A stretch of DNA of 42,062 nt. Source: Microbacteriaceae bacterium X2B (GTDB taxonomy: Bacteria > Actinomycetota > Actinomycetes > Actinomycetales > Microbacteriaceae). The notes beneath the pieces are model-generated. The model ran no database searches and was not told where the DNA came from. It worked only from the letters and a program-made list of their open reading frames with translations. The stretch spans positions 1 to 42,062 of the forward strand of contig SCPB01000020.1 in the NCBI GenBank assembly GCA_005502445.1, in the 5' to 3' direction. Made by a program: the position numbers and the translations under genes. Below are positions 29,102 to 41,959 of this stretch, in pieces. Within the stretch, counting starts at the first letter, position 1; each line of letters starts with the position of its first letter.

Positions 29102-30494
29102 TGCGCTCGCCGACGCGCTCGGCGTCGGCGACGCAACTGGCGAGGCCGACGCCGCGGTAGGCGGCCCCGACCAGGTGAAGGCCCGGTGCGGTGCGCAGGC
29201 GCTCGTCGATCCTCGTCATCCGGTCCCCGTGCCCGACGAGGTACTGGGGCATGCCTCGGGGCCAGCGCTGCACGATGCCGTGCGTCGGCTCCGCCGTCAG
29301 TCCCATCGCCTCCACGAGCTCGTCGTGCACGCGGCGGATCAGGGCGTCGTCGTCGAGGGCCGTCCAGCGGCGGTCGCCGCGCCGACCGACGGAGCACCGC
29401 ACGATCACGGTGCGGTCATCGGCGAGGTGGGGCCACTTGGCGCTCGACCACGTGCAGCCGACGAGCAGTCGGCCCTCTTCGGGCGGCACGAGGAACCCGG
29501 TCGCGTCGAGAGGGCCGACCAGCGCCGAGCGCGGGTAGGACAGCGCGACCGTCGCGACATCGGCGTAGACCGTTTCGGCGAGCAGTTCGGCGAGGGTCGG
29601 TTCGAGCCTGGCCAGCAGCCTCGCCGCGGTGTACGCCGGCACCGCGAGCACGACCGCATCGGCCTCGAGGCGCCGACCCGCCGTCGTCGTGACGACGTAC
29701 CCCGAAGCGCGACGGGCGATGTCGGCCGCGGCGTCGCCGACGATCAGGTCTTCGTCCGTGAACGGTGCCGCGAGCGCCTCGACCAGTCCGATGAGTCCTC
29801 CCTCCAGGGTGACCAGTGCCGGCCCGCCCGCCGCTTTGGCGCCCGATGTCGCTGAACGCCGGCGCAGCCGACGGATTCCGAAGTAGAGACTGCGGCTGCT
29901 ACGGGCGAGGGTCTCGATGTCGGGAACCGTGCTCCGCGCGCTGAGCTCGCTCGCGAGCCCCGCGTGCACGCCGCCGATGAGCGGCTCGACGAGTCGTGCG
30001 CTCACCTGGGCGCCGAGCCGCGAGCCGATCAGGTCGGCCACCGAGGGATCCACCGGGAACCGTCGTCGGCGCGGCAGCACGAGATCCAGCGCGGCCCGCG
30101 CGAGGCCGACGGGGGAGAGCAGCCGCGACGCCACGAGAGGCAGCACGCGGTCCGGGATCCCGAACATCGTTCCGCTCGGGATCGGCCGGAGCCGCCCGCG
30201 GGACCAGATGCGGGCCCCCAGCGCAGCGGGCGCTGTGGTCCTGCCGGCGAGACCGAGATCGTCGATGAGCGCGCCCACCGCCGGCGATCGGGTCAGCAGC
30301 GCGTCCGGGCCCGAGTCGATGAGATGCGGGCCCAGTCGCCGGGTCACGATCTTGCCGCCGAGCTGCGACGAGCCTTCGACGAGGACGACCTGCGCGCTGT
30401 CGCCGAGTGACTCCCGCAGGCGGTGGGCGGTCGTCAATCCACTGATGCCGCCGCCGACGATGACCACACGTCGTGCGCTCTCGGTAGCTGTCAT
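29064..30494 (-). CDS. hemY: Coproporphyrinogen/protoporphyrinogen oxidase
   Basis: This FAD enzyme of the HemG/HemY (CgoX) family oxidises the porphyrinogen late in heme synthesis; Actinobacteria use the coproporphyrin-dependent branch. The 476-residue protein has the dinucleotide motif VVIVGGGISGLTTAHRL at residues 9-25, EGSSQLGGKI, GPDALLTR, PLIGGVHAG in the middle and the C-terminal FAD segment GLHLVGAAYRGVGLASCVAD. The start context is CAGTCT-GATCGC-ATG, weakly like the leaderless layout. It stands alone rather than in a hem operon, between nrdG and a radical SAM gene, perhaps supplying heme for anaerobic respiration. Confidence 0.93.
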   Translation of the reverse strand: MTATESARRVVIVGGGISGLTTAHRLRESLGDSAQVVLVEGSSQLGGKIVTRRLGPHLIDSGPDALLTRSPAVGALIDDLGLAGRTTAPAALGARIWSRGRLRPIPSGTMFGIPDRVLPLVASRLLSPVGLARAALDLVLPRRRRFPVDPSVADLIGSRLGAQVSARLVEPLIGGVHAGLASELSARSTVPDIETLARSSRSLYFGIRRLRRRSATSGAKAAGGPALVTLEGGLIGLVEALAAPFTDEDLIVGDAAADIARRASGYVVTTTAGRRLEADAVVLAVPAYTAARLLARLEPTLAELLAETVYADVATVALSYPRSALVGPLDATGFLVPPEEGRLLVGCTWSSAKWPHLADDRTVIVRCSVGRRGDRRWTALDDDALIRRVHDELVEAMGLTAEPTHGIVQRWPRGMPQYLVGHGDRMTRIDERLRTAPGLHLVGAAYRGVGLASCVADAERVGERITRHLLSGSPSD

Positions 30495-30689
30495 GCGATC
30501 AGACTGCCGACTGCGTCGTGCGCCGCGCTCGGCATTCGACCGTGCTTAATTGCCGCGCGGTTCTCTCGTGCGCCGGACTTTTTCACGGGAGTCCTCGCTC
30601 CGGGCGGTGCGGCTCAAGGAGGACACTTCACGGAAGGGATGCCCGCGTCGGAGCATTCGACGCGAGGGCGCACGAACGGGAGGGGCCTC

Positions 30690-31901
30690 GTGACGACGAG
30701 CGATCGGTCCGGGAGATCGACGGCGACGGCGACCGGCACGGAACGCTCGTTGGGCGCCCGCGCCCGGCCCGTGCGCGCGTTGCACCACGATGTGTCCGAA
30801 CGGCCGTTCATCGTCATCTGGGAGGTCACGCGCGCCTGCCAGCTCGTCTGCGCGCATTGCAGGGCCGACGCGATCCGCGACCGCAATCCGCTGGAGCTCG
30901 ATACGCGCGAGGGGAAGCTGCTTCTTGACGACATCGCCTCGTTCGGCGCGCCGCGTCCGCTCGTCGTGCTCACGGGGGGAGACCCGTTCGAGCGCCCGGA
31001 TCTCGTCGACCTGGTGGCGCACGGAAGCGGGCAGGGCCTGAGCATGGCGCTCGCGCCCTCGGTGACGCCTCGACTCACCCGTCCCGTCCTGAGCGAATTG
31101 CGCGAGGCGGGGGCGAAAGCGGTGTCGCTCTCGCTGGACGGTGCCTCCGCCGCGACTCATGACGCGTTCCGCGGGGTCGGCGGCGTGTTCGACGCCACGG
31201 TCGACGCGGCGCGCACCGTGCGCGAGCTCGGCTTTCGGCTGCAGGTCAACACGACCGTCACACGCGGAAACGTCCGGGAGCTGCCGCGGATCCTCGCGAC
31301 GGTGCTGGAGTTCGGCGTCGCGCTGTGGAGCGTGTTCTTCCTCGTGCCGACGGGTCGCGGGAGCGCGCTCGAGCCGCTCGACGCGGCTGAGGAGGAAGAG
31401 GTCCTTCACTGGCTGCACGACGTCTCGGGGCTGATCGCGATCAAGGCGACCGAGGCTCCCCACTACCGGCGCATCGCGATCCAACGGGCCGAAGCCGCTG
31501 TCGTGGATGACGCGTTCCCGGCGGGAGGACTGCGCACCGCTCTGCAGCGCGAGACGGCCCGCCTGCTCAGCGGTCACGAGCCGACTCGCCGCAGCGCGCG
31601 CCCGCCGATCGACGTCAACGCGGGGCGTGGTTTCGCGTTCATCGACCACATGGGCACGGTGTACCCCAGCGGTTTCCTGCCGGTCGCGGTCGGTTCGGTC
31701 CGCGAGCAGCGGTTCGCGCAGATCTACCGCGATGCGCCCCTCATGCGAGCTCTGCGCACGCCGACGGCCTTCGGCGGCCGATGCGGACGGTGCGAGTTCG
31801 CGCCGGTGTGCGGGGGCTCGCGCTCATACGCCTACGCGGTCACAGGCGACCCGCTCGCCGAGGATCCCAGTTGCGGGTACCAGCCCGTGCGGAGGGGCTG
31901 A
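30690..31901 (+). CDS. Radical SAM/SPASM protein (AhbD/TIGR04053-like)
   Basis: In the 403-residue protein the radical SAM motif is CQLVCAHC (Cys50, 54, 57), preceded by RPFIVIWEVTRA, with VVLTGGDPFERPDL for SAM binding. The C-terminal SPASM-type auxiliary cluster region is CGRCEFAPVCGGSRSYAYA followed by a final Cys in DPSC. These features match the actinobacterial TIGR04053 group and resemble heme-synthesis AhbD/NirJ proteins. The substrate is unknown; the adjacent hemY and nitrogen-oxide genes make heme or a peptide modification plausible. GTG 30690 is favoured by GGGAGGGG 5 nt upstream; ATG 30639 would add 17 residues. A 6-nt gap to the next gene suggests an operon. Confidence 0.82.
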   Translation: MTTSDRSGRSTATATGTERSLGARARPVRALHHDVSERPFIVIWEVTRACQLVCAHCRADAIRDRNPLELDTREGKLLLDDIASFGAPRPLVVLTGGDPFERPDLVDLVAHGSGQGLSMALAPSVTPRLTRPVLSELREAGAKAVSLSLDGASAATHDAFRGVGGVFDATVDAARTVRELGFRLQVNTTVTRGNVRELPRILATVLEFGVALWSVFFLVPTGRGSALEPLDAAEEEEVLHWLHDVSGLIAIKATEAPHYRRIAIQRAEAAVVDDAFPAGGLRTALQRETARLLSGHEPTRRSARPPIDVNAGRGFAFIDHMGTVYPSGFLPVAVGSVREQRFAQIYRDAPLMRALRTPTAFGGRCGRCEFAPVCGGSRSYAYAVTGDPLAEDPSCGYQPVRRG

Positions 31902-37161: not shown

Positions 37162-37482
37162 ATGATCTCCGAACCCATCGCTCTCCACACCGCCCCCACC
37201 GCGCCTCGGGGCTCCCATTCCGGGTGCTCGTGCGGTCACGACGACGAGAACACCATTGTGCTGGACGCGCGGGCGATCCCGCACGCCGTGCGTCACGCCG
37301 CGATCATCGGAGCCCTCGACTCGCTCGCCGAGGGTGCCTCGATGGACCTCGTCGCTCCTCACGACCCGCTTCCGCTGCTCGCGCAGATCCAGCGGCGCAG
37401 CCCGGAGCAGTACTCCGTGGGATACCTGCAGGAAGGCCCCGAGACGTGGGTGCTGCGGTTCACCCGGCGCCCCGCATCCTGA
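37162..37482 (+). CDS. DUF2249 domain protein
   Basis: In the 106-residue protein, after a variable N-terminus containing Cys-Ser-Cys-Gly-His (about 22-26), the DUF2249 domain runs from about residue 32: VLDARAIPHAVRHAAIIGAL, SMDLVAPHDPLPLLAQIQRR, YSVGYLQEGPETWVLRF. DUF2249 proteins often occur with denitrification, hemerythrin or NnrS genes and are suspected to act in redox or nitrogen-oxide handling, but the activity is unknown. The N-terminal CxCxH could bind metal. It lies between moeA and the regulator of the copper nitrite-reductase-like operon. Confidence 0.88.
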   Translation: MISEPIALHTAPTAPRGSHSGCSCGHDDENTIVLDARAIPHAVRHAAIIGALDSLAEGASMDLVAPHDPLPLLAQIQRRSPEQYSVGYLQEGPETWVLRFTRRPAS

Positions 37483-37548: not shown

Positions 37549-38205
37549 GTGGGAGAACGGAGCGAAGCGCTGGAGCGCACGCTGTCGTCGTACAGCAGGA
37601 TCCTCATCATGCACTCCTTGCGACACGGCGCCGAACTGACGATCGACGCCCTGTGCGAGGTCTGCGGGCTGCACCCCAACACCGTGCGCGAGCACGTGCA
37701 CCGGCTCATCGATGAGGGCTTCGTGCTCTCGCGGAGCGAGCGGCGCGAGCAGCGGGGCCGGCCCAAGGTGCTCTACCGCGCCGTTCAGGGAACCGAGTCG
37801 CACGAGTCTGTGCTCGCCACCCGGGTGCGCCTCGCGCACGAGCGCAGCGAGATCGTGCGCCGGGTGCTGCCGGACGTCCCCGCGGCCACCGGCGAGGAGT
37901 CGGTGGTGCGTCAGCTCGACGCCCTGGACGACCACCTCGACCAGGCAGGATTCGACCCGATCACCGACCAGCGCAATCGATGCGTCGACCTCACGCGGTG
38001 CCCGTTCGCCGAGATGGTGGCCAAGCACGAGCGGATGGTGTGCGATGTGCACTTCTGGCTGATCAGCACCGTGCTCAAGCAAGCCGACGGCCCGCTTCGC
38101 GCGAAGGAGCTGCTTCCCTTCGTCGAGCCCGATCGGTGCCGGGTGCAGCTCAGCGTCATCGACGATCACGTGGCGGGCCGCTCGGCGGTGCGCGCCGCCG
38201 GTTAG
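37549..38205 (+). CDS. HTH regulator with four C-terminal cysteines (possible Fe-S sensor)
   Basis: The 218-residue protein has an N-terminal winged helix (about 10-80: ALCEVCGLHPNTVREHVHRLIDEGFV, then RGRPKVLYRAV) of the ArsR/DeoR-like COG2345 type. The C-terminal half carries Cys145, Cys151 (CPFAEMVAKHERMVC), Cys165 and Cys197, the spacing style of SufR-like regulators that hold an iron-sulfur cluster. It could sense oxygen, nitric oxide or iron. It is directly upstream (17 nt) of the membrane protein and NirK-like genes, so it most likely controls them. Cluster binding is inferred from the cysteine pattern only. Confidence 0.82.
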   Translation: MGERSEALERTLSSYSRILIMHSLRHGAELTIDALCEVCGLHPNTVREHVHRLIDEGFVLSRSERREQRGRPKVLYRAVQGTESHESVLATRVRLAHERSEIVRRVLPDVPAATGEESVVRQLDALDDHLDQAGFDPITDQRNRCVDLTRCPFAEMVAKHERMVCDVHFWLISTVLKQADGPLRAKELLPFVEPDRCRVQLSVIDDHVAGRSAVRAAG

Positions 38206-38222: not shown

Positions 38223-39302
38223 ATGAATCGGTTCCTGCTCCTCGCACCGGCGGCGATCTCGCTCGTGCTCGGCGTCACGGGCGGCACGATCCTCCTCACC
38301 GGCTCGGGCGAGGGCATTGGTCGACGGCTGGCCGAGCAGCACGGCCTCCTCATGATCTTCGGGTTCCTCGGCACTCTCATCGCCCTCGAGCGAGCCGTGG
38401 TGCTCCGGCGGGCGTCCGCGTTCGTCGTCCCGGGGCTCATCGGGCTCGGCGGCGTCCTTCTCGCGGCACCCGTCCCCGAACGGGTCGGGCAGTCCGTCCT
38501 GATCGCCGGCCTGCTCGGGCTCGTCCTGCTGTACGCCGCGATCCGGGCGAGGCAGGCGTCGCTCGCGATCGAGGTGCAGGCTCTCGGCGCGGTCGCGGGA
38601 GCGGCGGCCGCGATACTCCTGGCGGGGGGCCTCGTCGTCGAGCGCGTCCTCGCCCTGCTGGTGGCCTTCCTGGTGCTGACGGTGGTCGGCGAACGCATCG
38701 AGCTCGCGCGGGTGCAGGTGCTCTCCGCCCGTGCGACCGTCGCCGCGCTGGTGGCGTCGATCGCGCTGGCAGCGTCGGCGATCGTCGCCGTGCCGCTGCC
38801 CCTCGTGGGCATGCCGGCGACCGGGCTCGCGCTCCTGGGGCTCGTCGCGTGGCTCTGGCGCTTCGATGTCGCGCGACGACTGCTCGGGGCTCCCGGGCTC
38901 CCGGGCTACGTCGCCGGATGCCTGATCGCGGGGTACGGATGGCTCGCGGTCGCCGCCGGGGTGTGGATGCTCTCTCCCGTGCCGCTACCCCACCGTGCCT
39001 ACGACGCGAGCATCCATGCGCTCTTCGCGGGATTCGTCCTCTCGATGGTCTTCGCCCACGCGCCGATCGTCCTCCCCGCCGTGCTCCGATTCCGTCTGCC
39101 GTACAGTCCCTTGCTCGCCATTCCGGTCGTGCTCCTGCATGTCGGCCTCGTGATCCGGGTCGTCATCGGCGACGGACGCGGAGTGGGTCCGGCCGTCCCC
39201 GTCGGCGCGTGGGTCATGGTGGCGGCTCTCGTGCTCTTCGTCGTCACGATCGTCCTGCGCGCGATCACCGCTCGCCGACCGAAAGTGGTGAGCACTTCAT
39301 GA
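38223..39302 (+). CDS. Polytopic NnrS-like membrane protein of the nirK operon
   Basis: The 359-residue protein consists of about 11-12 hydrophobic helices with short loops. His-bearing segments are LAEQHGLLMIFGFLGTLIALERA near the start and YDASIHALFAGFVLSMVFAHAPIVLP in the C-terminal part, which recall NnrS, a heme/copper membrane protein linked to nitric-oxide metabolism. Direct family assignment is uncertain. Its TGA overlaps the ATG of the NirK-like fusion (ATGA), so the two are translated together and may work as a complex in the membrane. The earlier open frame is the regulator gene in another phase. Confidence 0.75.
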   Translation: MNRFLLLAPAAISLVLGVTGGTILLTGSGEGIGRRLAEQHGLLMIFGFLGTLIALERAVVLRRASAFVVPGLIGLGGVLLAAPVPERVGQSVLIAGLLGLVLLYAAIRARQASLAIEVQALGAVAGAAAAILLAGGLVVERVLALLVAFLVLTVVGERIELARVQVLSARATVAALVASIALAASAIVAVPLPLVGMPATGLALLGLVAWLWRFDVARRLLGAPGLPGYVAGCLIAGYGWLAVAAGVWMLSPVPLPHRAYDASIHALFAGFVLSMVFAHAPIVLPAVLRFRLPYSPLLAIPVVLLHVGLVIRVVIGDGRGVGPAVPVGAWVMVAALVLFVVTIVLRAITARRPKVVSTS

Positions 39303-41959
39303 ACCGACGCAGCGCGACTCTCCGACTCAACGCCCTCGTCGGCGCATGGCTCCTGGCGGCCGTCGTCGCGGTGATCGTGCACCGATGGATTGAGTTCCCC
39401 GTCTGGCTGATGGTGCACACCGTGCTCCTGGGAGCGGGGAGCACGGCGATCCTCATCTGGAGCCAGCATTTCGCCGACGCGGTGCTCCGGAGCGGTTCCG
39501 CGACGGTGTCGAGATCGCTCGTGGTGCGCGTCGTGGTATTCACCGTCGGCGCGGTTCTCGTCGCAACGGGCCGGGTCGGGCAGATCCCCGAGCTGCTCAT
39601 AGCAGGCTCCGTCGTGCTGATCGTCGCGGGCGTGTGGCACTCGATCTCGCTGGGGATGCAGGTGCGTACGGCCCTGCCGGCCGGATTCGCCGTGCTCGTG
39701 CGGTTCTACGTCCTCGCCGGTGCGGCTCTCGTGCCCGGCGTGGTCGCGGGTGCGTGGCTCGCACGCAGCTCGGATGCCACCATCGTGGACCGTCTCTTCG
39801 TCGCGCACGTCTCCTTCACCGTCCTCGGCTGGATGGGCCTCACCGTGCTGGGCACCCTCGTGCTGCTCTGGCCCACCGTGCTGAGCATGCGCGCGCCCGG
39901 CGATGCCGTTCGCCGGGCGCGGCAGGCGGTGTGGATCCTCGCGGGGGCGCTCGTCCTGATCGGTGCGGCGGTGATCGTGGATGCGCCCGCCGCGGTCGCC
40001 GTGGCGGCCGCCGTGTGGCTGCTCGGAATGGCGCTCGTCCTGCTCCCTGCCGCCCGGCTCGCCCTGCGCATCCGCACCGCGAGCTTCGCCGCGATGAGTC
40101 TCGCCGCCGGCACGGTCTGGTTCGCGGCGCTCGTCGTCGCCCTCGGTGTCGCGGCGCTGACCGCCGGCCAGGACTGGGCCGCGCTCGGCGACGGCATCGC
40201 TCGGCTCGCCGTGCCCGTGACGGCCGGTTTCCTCGCGCAGGTCCTGCTCGGAGCGCTCGCCTACCTCATCCCGGTGATGGCCGGGCGCGGTCCCCGCAGT
40301 CGTGCCGCAGCCGCCGCCGAGTTCGATCGCGCCGCCGTCTTCCGCGTGAGCGCGACGAATGCGGGGCTGGCGGTGTTCCAGCTTCCGCTGTCGAGCCTGG
40401 TCTCGGTGGGGGTTTCGGTACTGGTCCTCGCCGTGCTCGCGAGTGCGCTCGTCCTCGCCGTCCGCGGGCTCGTCGCGGCGCGGCGCGAGCGCGCGGCTTC
40501 CGGCGAGGCGCCGACGCCCCGCGTGCCGATCGGGATGCCCGAGCGCCACCCCGTGCGCCCGCCGGCTCGCTCCGGCCAGGCGGCGTCGGCGGCGAGCGCC
40601 ATCGTCCTCGTCGTCGCGCTCGGGATCGCCCTCGACCCCGCAGCGGCCGGCATCGGCGTCGGCGCGGCGGCGGCGGAGGAGCCGACGTCGTCGACGGGCC
40701 GGACCACGACCGCGACCGTCACGGTCGTCGGGATGCGGTTCTCCCCCTCCGTCATCGAGGTCCCCGCGGGCGACCGCCTCGTCATCGAGTTCACCAACGA
40801 CGGCGGTGACGTTCACGACCTGACGCTCGCGAACGGAGCGACGACCGGTCGACTCGCGCCCGGGGGATCCGCGGTTCTCGACGCCGGAACCATCGGAGCA
40901 GCGATGCAGGCGTGGTGCTCGGTCGCGGGCCATCGGCAGATGGGGATGGTTCTCGAGATCCGGGTGACCGGCGAATCGACGAACGAGGCCCCCGGTTCGG
41001 CGTCGGACGGTCATTCGAGCCGCGACCACGGCGGCGGGCTCGGGTTCGCGCCCGACGGCCGCACCGGTCCCCCGGTCGACGTCGACCTCTCCCGCACGCT
41101 GCCGACCGGTGCGGATCCGTGGGATGCCGCACTGGCGCCGGCAGCGGGGGATCCCGCAGAGTCCACCGTTCACCGGGTACGCCTCACCGTGACGGAGAGC
41201 GTGCGCGAGGTCGCTCCGGGCGTGACGCAACGGCTGTGGAGCTACAACGGTCGGGTTCCGGGGCCGGTGATGAGGGGCCGGGTCGGGGACGTCTTCGAGG
41301 TGACCCTGCTCAATGACGGGAGCATCGGGCACTCCATCGACTTCCACGCCGGCGCGCTCGCCCCAGCCGGACCGATGCGCACGATCCTTCCCGGGGAGGA
41401 GCTCGTGTACCGCTTCACGGCCGTGCGGGCGGGCATCTGGATGTACCACTGCTCGACGATGCCGATGAGCACGCACATCGCGAACGGCCTCTTCGGTGCC
41501 GTCATCATCGACCCGCCCGATCTGGCACCGGCTCGCGAGTATCTTCTGGTGCAGAACGAGTACTACCTCGGGCCGCAGGGCGGTGTCGTCGATCCCGCGA
41601 AGCTCGCTGACGAGGACCCCGATCTGGTGGTGTTCAACGGCTACGCGAACCAGTACCGCGATCGTCCCCTTCCCGTCGAGGTCGGCGAGCGCGTGCGCGT
41701 CTGGGTGCTCGACGCCGGGCCGAACCGATCGACGTCGTTCCACGTCGTGGGCGGACAGTTCGACGGAGTGTGGGCCGAGGGGGCGTGGCGCTTGCGCGAC
41801 GGCGGCACCGGAGGGGCTCAGTCCCTGGGTCTGTTCGCGGCTCAGGGCGGATTCGTCGAGCTGAGCTTCCCCGAACCGGGTGACTACCCCTTCGTCAACC
41901 ATCAGATGGTCGACGCCGAACGCGGAGCGCTCGGCCTCTTCCGGGTCTCAGCCCGGTAG
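39299..41959 (+). CDS. Membrane-cupredoxin-NirK fusion (copper nitrite-reductase-like)
   Basis: In the 886-residue protein, residues 1 to about 395 form a membrane domain of roughly 11 helices with conserved His (MVHTVLLGAGST, VAHVSFTVLGWMG), and another helix lies near 435-455. Residues 468-560 form a cupredoxin with a complete type-1 site (His506, Cys540, His545, Met548 or 550). Residues about 615-886 form a two-cupredoxin NirK/AniA-like unit: HSIDFH (His678, Asp681, His683), YHC (His717, Cys718), His726 and His815. The expected axial Met after HIANG is Leu731, and the expected catalytic His after FNG is Tyr782. It probably reduces nitrite to NO at the outer membrane face using its built-in electron carrier, but the substitutions leave activity open. 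Confidence 0.85.
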   Translation: MNRRSATLRLNALVGAWLLAAVVAVIVHRWIEFPVWLMVHTVLLGAGSTAILIWSQHFADAVLRSGSATVSRSLVVRVVVFTVGAVLVATGRVGQIPELLIAGSVVLIVAGVWHSISLGMQVRTALPAGFAVLVRFYVLAGAALVPGVVAGAWLARSSDATIVDRLFVAHVSFTVLGWMGLTVLGTLVLLWPTVLSMRAPGDAVRRARQAVWILAGALVLIGAAVIVDAPAAVAVAAAVWLLGMALVLLPAARLALRIRTASFAAMSLAAGTVWFAALVVALGVAALTAGQDWAALGDGIARLAVPVTAGFLAQVLLGALAYLIPVMAGRGPRSRAAAAAEFDRAAVFRVSATNAGLAVFQLPLSSLVSVGVSVLVLAVLASALVLAVRGLVAARRERAASGEAPTPRVPIGMPERHPVRPPARSGQAASAASAIVLVVALGIALDPAAAGIGVGAAAAEEPTSSTGRTTTATVTVVGMRFSPSVIEVPAGDRLVIEFTNDGGDVHDLTLANGATTGRLAPGGSAVLDAGTIGAAMQAWCSVAGHRQMGMVLEIRVTGESTNEAPGSASDGHSSRDHGGGLGFAPDGRTGPPVDVDLSRTLPTGADPWDAALAPAAGDPAESTVHRVRLTVTESVREVAPGVTQRLWSYNGRVPGPVMRGRVGDVFEVTLLNDGSIGHSIDFHAGALAPAGPMRTILPGEELVYRFTAVRAGIWMYHCSTMPMSTHIANGLFGAVIIDPPDLAPAREYLLVQNEYYLGPQGGVVDPAKLADEDPDLVVFNGYANQYRDRPLPVEVGERVRVWVLDAGPNRSTSFHVVGGQFDGVWAEGAWRLRDGGTGGAQSLGLFAAQGGFVELSFPEPGDYPFVNHQMVDAERGALGLFRVSAR

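Follow-up and report, generated by a model that had tools for sequence, protein, structure and literature searches.

The stretch of DNA analysed here, the 42,062 nucleotides of contig SCPB01000020.1 of Microbacteriaceae bacterium X2B (the window), carries a gene that probably encodes a membrane-anchored copper nitrite reductase, converting nitrite (NO2-) to nitric oxide (NO). Judged from its sequence, the protein would belong to the actinobacterial type of NirK (Clade II) and would be a variant of it with a leucine at the axial position of the type-1 copper. It is filed as NirK because of its catalytic set of residues and because it falls in trees among relatives that bear methionine at that position, the axial leucine and a score below the cut-off of the family model TIGR02376 notwithstanding.

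The gene (positions 39299 to 41959, forward strand) encodes 886 amino acids, and the start of its open reading frame (ORF) overlaps the stop of an upstream ORF (38223 to 39302) in the letters ATGA. The GC content at codon positions 1, 2 and 3 is.75,.53 and.88, respectively. Three parts follow one another along the chain, all on the forward strand. The N-terminal membrane domain (residues 1-430; 39299 to 40588) is polytopic, with 13 predicted helices, and is recognised by its predicted fold and by the conserved H28, H40, H57, H114 and H170. The cupredoxin domain (about residues 464-555; 40688 to 40963) matches PF13473 (Cupredoxin_1) at residues 464-529 and contains the type-1 set H506, C540, H545 and M550. 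The NirK two-domain catalytic unit (residues 601-886; 41099 to 41956), delimited by alignments with AniA and HdNiR, matches TIGR02376 with an expectation value (E) of 7e-49, and a match to Cu-oxidase_3 was also obtained for the protein. An earlier note on this DNA, made by a model from the letters alone, had described a membrane domain, an intact cupredoxin and a NirK unit in one chain, and the ORF, the predicted helices and the domain matches bear this out. When the cupredoxin domain was searched alone against the PDB, no match was obtained at E<=0.001. The cupredoxin motif CX4HX4M lies 5' of the NirK unit in 184 of 193 loci with an axial methionine, 31 of 31 with leucine and two of seven with glutamine, several loci of one genome being each counted in this tally.

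Residues of the window protein were placed via printed alignments to solved structures, with the AfNiR numbering fixed on the PDB sequence. For AfNiR we take His95, Cys136, His145 and Met150 to be the type-1 ligands, His100, His135 and His306 the type-2 ligands, and Asp98 and His255 the catalytic pair. In the alignment, H678, C718 (41450 to 41452, forward strand, as for all residues located here) and H726 correspond to His95, Cys136 and His145; H683, H717 and H868 (41900 to 41902, in VNHQM) to His100, His135 and His306, the last of which sits in NHNLIE; D681 and H815 (41741 to 41743) to Asp98 and His255; and V817 to Ile257. The type-1 ligands other than the axial one, the type-2 ligands and the catalytic pair of a nitrite reductase are thus all present, as had been proposed from the sequence for His678, Asp681, His683, His717, Cys718 and His726. 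The axial position is different: Leu731 (codon CTC, 41489 to 41491) is aligned with Met150, again as the earlier note had it, so that the axial methionine, which PMC4770552 lists with the residues that set NirK apart, is missing. A sequencing slip is an unlikely cause, since CTC is two bases away from ATG. Met721 and Met723, which lie between Cys718 and His726, are no substitute for it because methionine-bearing homologues have both as well (69 and 74 of the 75 such named homologues, and four and five of the five leucine-bearing ones). These figures refer to the 80 nearest named homologues, 61-73% identical to the window protein, which are the best 80 of at least 440 found when the collection of named genomes was searched; the ligands other than the axial one are retained in 80 of 80.

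The catalytic histidine, which the earlier note held to be replaced by Tyr782 (41642 to 41644), is in place. Tyr782 is opposite the His of the AniA FNGH motif, and AfNiR has Ala223 of its FNG motif there, so this variable FNG-X site is not catalytic. His255 of AfNiR sits in PHLIGG, which is aligned with SFHVVGG of the window, making His815 the catalytic histidine and not the copper ligand it had been taken for; the third type-2 ligand, His868, had been missed. This agrees with PMC4770552, where the active-site histidine is placed in SSFHV/TRPHL motifs. Among the 232 loci read, which include several from one genome, position 815 is His in 231, the remaining locus being not alignable that far. 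The Tyr782 column holds eleven residues in the same loci (Y 159, V 16, H 12, R 12, F 11, I 8, T 4, S 3, M 3, A 2, E 1 and one unread), and replacement of the catalytic His by Tyr is ruled out by the AfNiR alignment together with the His at 815. Of the two residues that a structural alignment could have supplied from elsewhere, another histidine was thus found at the catalytic site, and no other methionine at the axial one. In one relative (locus L006 of genome G027, also read as L142), the C-terminus of the NirK diverges past YPFVTP and the third type-2 His is absent in that frame, possibly through a frameshift or a rearranged end.

The closest solved structures are those of Hyphomicrobium HdNiR (PDB chain 2dv6) and Neisseria AniA (1kbv), which have the catalytic and type-2 residues in common with the window protein; HdNiR also has an N-terminal cupredoxin. 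Both have an axial methionine where the window has leucine, and neither is known to have a polytopic membrane domain or a coupled partner. Leucine at the same axial site is found in the solved AxNiR chain 2jfc, and the fold therefore accepts it; AxNiR is a two-domain enzyme and 2jfc a laboratory variant of it, whereas the leucine of the window is natural. The NirK of Thermus scotoductus, TsNirK, is similar to the window protein in having three domains and a NirK type-1 copper without methionine, and differs from it in its axial glutamine, a serine for the catalytic aspartate and a C-terminal cupredoxin (PMC6400189). The architecture of about 900 amino acids is already published: PMC4770552 describes the Propionibacterium acnes NirK as having a CX4HX4M cupredoxin and, ahead of it, 400 amino acids of membrane domain "of unknown function", with the cupredoxin in every actinobacterial NirK considered there and the membrane domain not in all. 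On this published description alone, the P. acnes-type Clade II NirK is likened to the window protein in its layout of membrane domain, cupredoxin and NirK; it has methionine at the axial position, unlike the window, and what is added here is a fold prediction for the membrane domain and the conserved partner protein.

The partner is the membrane protein encoded by the upstream ORF (38223 to 39302, forward strand; 359 amino acids, 12 helices), which has a predicted heme-copper-oxidase-like fold and no family match. An ORF of this kind lies 5' of the fusion in 69 of the 80 named loci, and four of the eleven misses are the loci L019, L028, L062 and L076, which end at contig ends and are also those in which the membrane domain, aligned in 76 of 80, is missed. 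Two of the five leucine-bearing named loci (L047 and L050) are without the partner. It is always on the same strand, and its distance from the start of the fusion is between -20 and 300 nt in 71 of 72 cases, which include loci beyond the 80. Its histidines H40, H265 and H279 are kept in 73 of 73 rows and H306 in 58, while in the membrane domain of the fusion H28 is kept in 79, H40 in 81, H57 in 65, H114 in 79 and H170 in 82 of 82 rows.

AlphaFold2 (AF2) models of the two parts have a predicted local distance difference test (pLDDT) score of 89.5 and a predicted template modelling (pTM) score of 0.90 for the membrane domain, and of 93.6 and 0.92 for the partner. In Foldseek, ranks 1-29 for the membrane domain model are all heme-copper oxidases or NO reductases (probability 1.00, query template modelling score, TMq, 0.45-0.63), at E 0.0086-0.28, with none at E<=0.001 and no unrelated control model alongside. 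For the partner model, ranks 1-6 are cbb3 CcoN, NorB, aa3 and qNOR (probability 1.00, TMq 0.53-0.70), the best E being only 1e-3, with none below and again no unrelated control model. On the AF2 models, both parts are thus predicted to have the fold of heme-copper oxidase subunit I (TMq to 0.63 and 0.70). This result is new here and, with the incomplete metal ligands described below, may point to a membrane module that leads from quinol to nitrite. Pfam and NCBIfam scans of the membrane domain and of the partner gave no match, and among the relatives a COX1 match, at 2e-4, was obtained for one of 45 membrane-domain rows.

Heme-copper oxidases hold the low-spin heme by histidines of helices 2 and 10, and CuB and the high-spin heme by histidines of helices 6, 7 and 10. 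This full set, sought by helix number and not by residue superposition, was found in neither part. The partner has H40 in helix 2 and H265 and H279 in helix 10, with no conserved His in helices 6-7, and the fusion domain has H40 in helix 2 and H170 in helix 6, with no His in helix 10. On the models, H40 and H265 of the partner could hold a low-spin heme, and the CuB set would be incomplete or missing in both parts.

These results also bear on whether the membrane module removes NO, as a partner similar to NnrS or to NO reductase, and is not an electron donor. In favour of this, the predicted models of both parts resemble NO reductases and cbb3 oxidases in fold, and a COX1-family search of the genome at E<=0.001 yields a single protein, an oxidase of aa3 type, so that by this search a separate heme-copper-type NO reductase is undetected in the 113-contig assembly. 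Neither part, however, has a conserved His in helix 7 or the HxH in helix 10, the ligands expected of a heme-copper centre, here assigned by helix number, and a genome search with the NnrS model (PF05940) stays empty up to E<=10, which makes a role in NO removal unlikely. The earlier note had called the partner NnrS-like and translationally coupled. The coupling stands in the ATGA overlap, and membership of Pfam NnrS is borne out neither by the genome search nor by 46 partner rows, none of which matches PF05940 at E<=0.1. What is left of the likeness is the predicted fold and a weak profile match: compared with one NnrS protein, the membrane domain gave a probability of 55.7 and E 1e-4, and the partner in hhalign 6.3 and 0.006, both pairwise figures that are uncalibrated against a database. 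When plasmids were searched for NnrS relatives, one weak match was obtained.

At the axial site, 75 of the 80 nearest named homologues have methionine and five leucine, namely four Nocardioides (L014, L020, L047 and L050) and Thermocrispum agreste (L066). In the sample of the order, a DNA motif found 85 places in 84 of 396 genomes, with 82 Met, two Leu and one unreadable (L140). Pattern or region loci cover 81 of these places (79 Met, one Leu, which is L182, and the unreadable one); the remaining four comprise one Leu, the window, and three Met, namely L004, L005 and L092. In the genus of Nocardioides guangzhouensis, the motif, which demands T at the second codon base and sees no other residues, is present in 34 of 215 genomes at 35 places, 23 with CT (Leu) and 12 with AT, of which 11 were read as loci and are all Met. 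A Leu-only motif finds the window alone among the 249 genomes of its family. Within the genus of the window, the gene is present in two of 26 genomes, the window's included; the sole other copy (L002 in G011) has one in-frame TGA inside the matched stretch.

The phylum sample gave a profile match in 155 of 396 genomes. Thirty loci comprised 22 Met, seven Gln and one Leu, the window, and the next 40 listed places 28 Met, two Gln and ten Leu. All ten of these Leu rows, together with one Met row, have HCH and a His at the positions of Asp681 and Val817, which we take to be the signature of multicopper oxidases. The 59 rows of NirK type comprise 49 Met, nine Gln and one Leu. The nine Gln-axial proteins of NirK type (L098, L100, L102, L103, L105, L107, L108, L243 and L247) keep the catalytic Asp, unlike TsNirK, and the two of them in the tree fall outside the group of the window.

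With the axial column left out of the alignment, seven changes for leucine are required on a quick tree of 139 NirK rows, two of them forced by starred branches; the tree contains an all-Leu clade of 12 rows with support 98. A careful tree of 68 rows, which includes the cupredoxin, needs five changes, with at least three forced by starred branches, and not one of 200 bootstrap trees (0%) has a branch that separates the Leu rows from the rest. Each change may be a gain or a loss. A single clade of all leucine-bearing proteins is rejected (log-likelihood difference 80.9, approximately unbiased (AU) test p 0.00256). The earlier note had proposed to check whether the two substitutions define a clade: leucine does not define a single one, and tyrosine is simply the most frequent residue in the varying column of position 782. 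The window is placed weakly and differently by each tree, next to L218 from the Nocardioides-type genus in the quick one (support 80) and next to two rows from mycobacteria in the careful one (71/81), and the AU test does not reject (p 0.204) its inclusion in a Nocardioides-type group of 36 rows that also contains Thermocrispum. On these sequences, the leucine of the window may be an event of its own or common with some Nocardioides-type rows, and methionine and leucine appear to have been exchanged repeatedly at the axial site, leucine being a recurrent, tolerated variation. The residue at position 725 may go along with leucine: in a selection of Nocardioides-type rows, all 23 with Leu have Ala or Thr there, and the 12 with Met have Val (eight), Ala (three) or Thr (one), a pattern that may reflect descent. 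One record titled Sporosarcina (Bacillota; L016) has fusion and partner within an Arthrobacter-like clade, for which recent transfer or contamination is suggested.

Several points weigh against a functional nitrite reductase of the NirK type. The TIGR02376 score is 166.9 bits for the whole protein and 172 for the domain, compared with a curated cut-off of 296.3. The model misses the relatives too, given that their scores equally fall under the cut-off (159-183 bits in five Met-bearing and 160 bits in two Leu-bearing relatives). When the axial methionine of other NirKs is removed by engineering, the potential of the type-1 copper rises and turnover can become slower. No record of nitrite reduction by a leucine-bearing actinobacterial NirK was found in the open-access literature, nor any paper on a natural Leu-axial NirK, subscription journals being mostly outside this search. 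The N-terminal cupredoxin copper of HdNiR is described as unable to shuttle electrons (PMC6400189, PMC4770552). Nonetheless, a NirK with an axial residue other than methionine can work, as TsNirK with its glutamine reduces nitrite (PMC6400189).

The end branch of the window is also long (0.64-0.65, compared with medians of 0.18 and 0.23), and constraint on the protein may thus have been relaxed. It could then be a decaying or sub-functional NirK in which the change from methionine to leucine marks relaxed selection in one genome, in keeping with the rarity of the gene in its genus and with the Leu motif being confined to the window's own genome among the 249 searched in the family, whose carriers of the gene are uncounted. 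Decay of this kind is improbable. The window departs from its relatives at four of 126 conserved columns, which is an average value (median three, highest nine, rank 62 of 135), the ORF is full-length with a strong codon-position bias, and leucine is found throughout the 12-row clade of relatives, so it can be stably maintained.

The last point is that in the phylum sample axial leucine belongs to oxidase-type proteins, the window excepted, which combines an oxidase-type axial residue with a NirK-type catalytic set. Two-domain multicopper oxidases have the axial leucine in ten of the 11 oxidase-type rows, and they have HCH and histidines where the window has HCS, D681 and V817; by this signature, a laccase-type or two-domain multicopper oxidase is ruled out. 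It is very improbable that the protein is a copper oxidoreductase of different chemistry, altered at the axial ligand as well as at the catalytic His, as the earlier note had suggested, for the axial leucine is real and shared with those distant rows, but His815, Asp681 and all three type-2 histidines are present, the oxidase residues are not, and the remainder of the site is the same in relatives with Met and in those with Leu.

The surroundings of the gene fit nitrate-to-NO metabolism, as far as gene content can indicate. The genome has a narG (1569 bits compared with a cut-off of 1084), and the window contains modA above cut-off, a MoeA-type gene and an anaerobic ribonucleotide reductase. 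Upstream of the partner, in the same gene run and on the forward strand, lie a winged-helix, ArsR-like regulator (37549 to 38205; HTH_20 at 26.2 of 27 bits, just under cut-off, and HTH_metalloreg below cut-off) and a DUF2249 protein (37162 to 37482; PF10006, E 5e-24). At 30423-31901, 5' of the molybdate genes, the window also encodes a TIGR04053 radical SAM/SPASM protein above cut-off, whose lower matches include heme-synthesis-type relatives.

If the protein is a membrane-anchored nitrite reductase, its NirK core would form the usual trimer at the outer face of the membrane. Electrons from the quinol pool would pass via the membrane module, the cupredoxin or both to the NirK type-1 copper, and from there over the Cys718-His717 bridge to the type-2 copper, where nitrite would be reduced. 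Delivery by the fused cupredoxin is a supposition. Loss of the axial methionine in cupredoxin variants leaves a three-coordinate type-1 copper of higher potential and, given that Leu731 cannot coordinate copper, the same would be expected here. The axial leucine would then tune the site of electron input and leave the reaction unchanged. Membrane anchoring, the fused cupredoxin, the coupled membrane partner and the non-coordinating axial residue, all features of the earlier note, are supported by the present results.

A more speculative possibility, put forward tentatively, is that the whole is a quinol:nitrite oxidoreductase. Two degenerate proteins of heme-copper-oxidase fold, having lost their O2/NO centre, might serve a tethered NirK as a heme-b conduit or an NO-handling unit, with leucine retuning the type-1 copper to a high potential in several lineages (the window and much of Nocardioides) to suit the built-in donor. 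To our knowledge, the change from axial methionine to leucine in NirK has so far been a laboratory experiment. Natural switching between the two residues, beside sisters of the same architecture, would provide natural pairs in which to see how the type-1 potential affects nitrite reduction, and with the predicted fold the membrane domain would for the first time have a role that can be tested, in a system of many actinobacteria.

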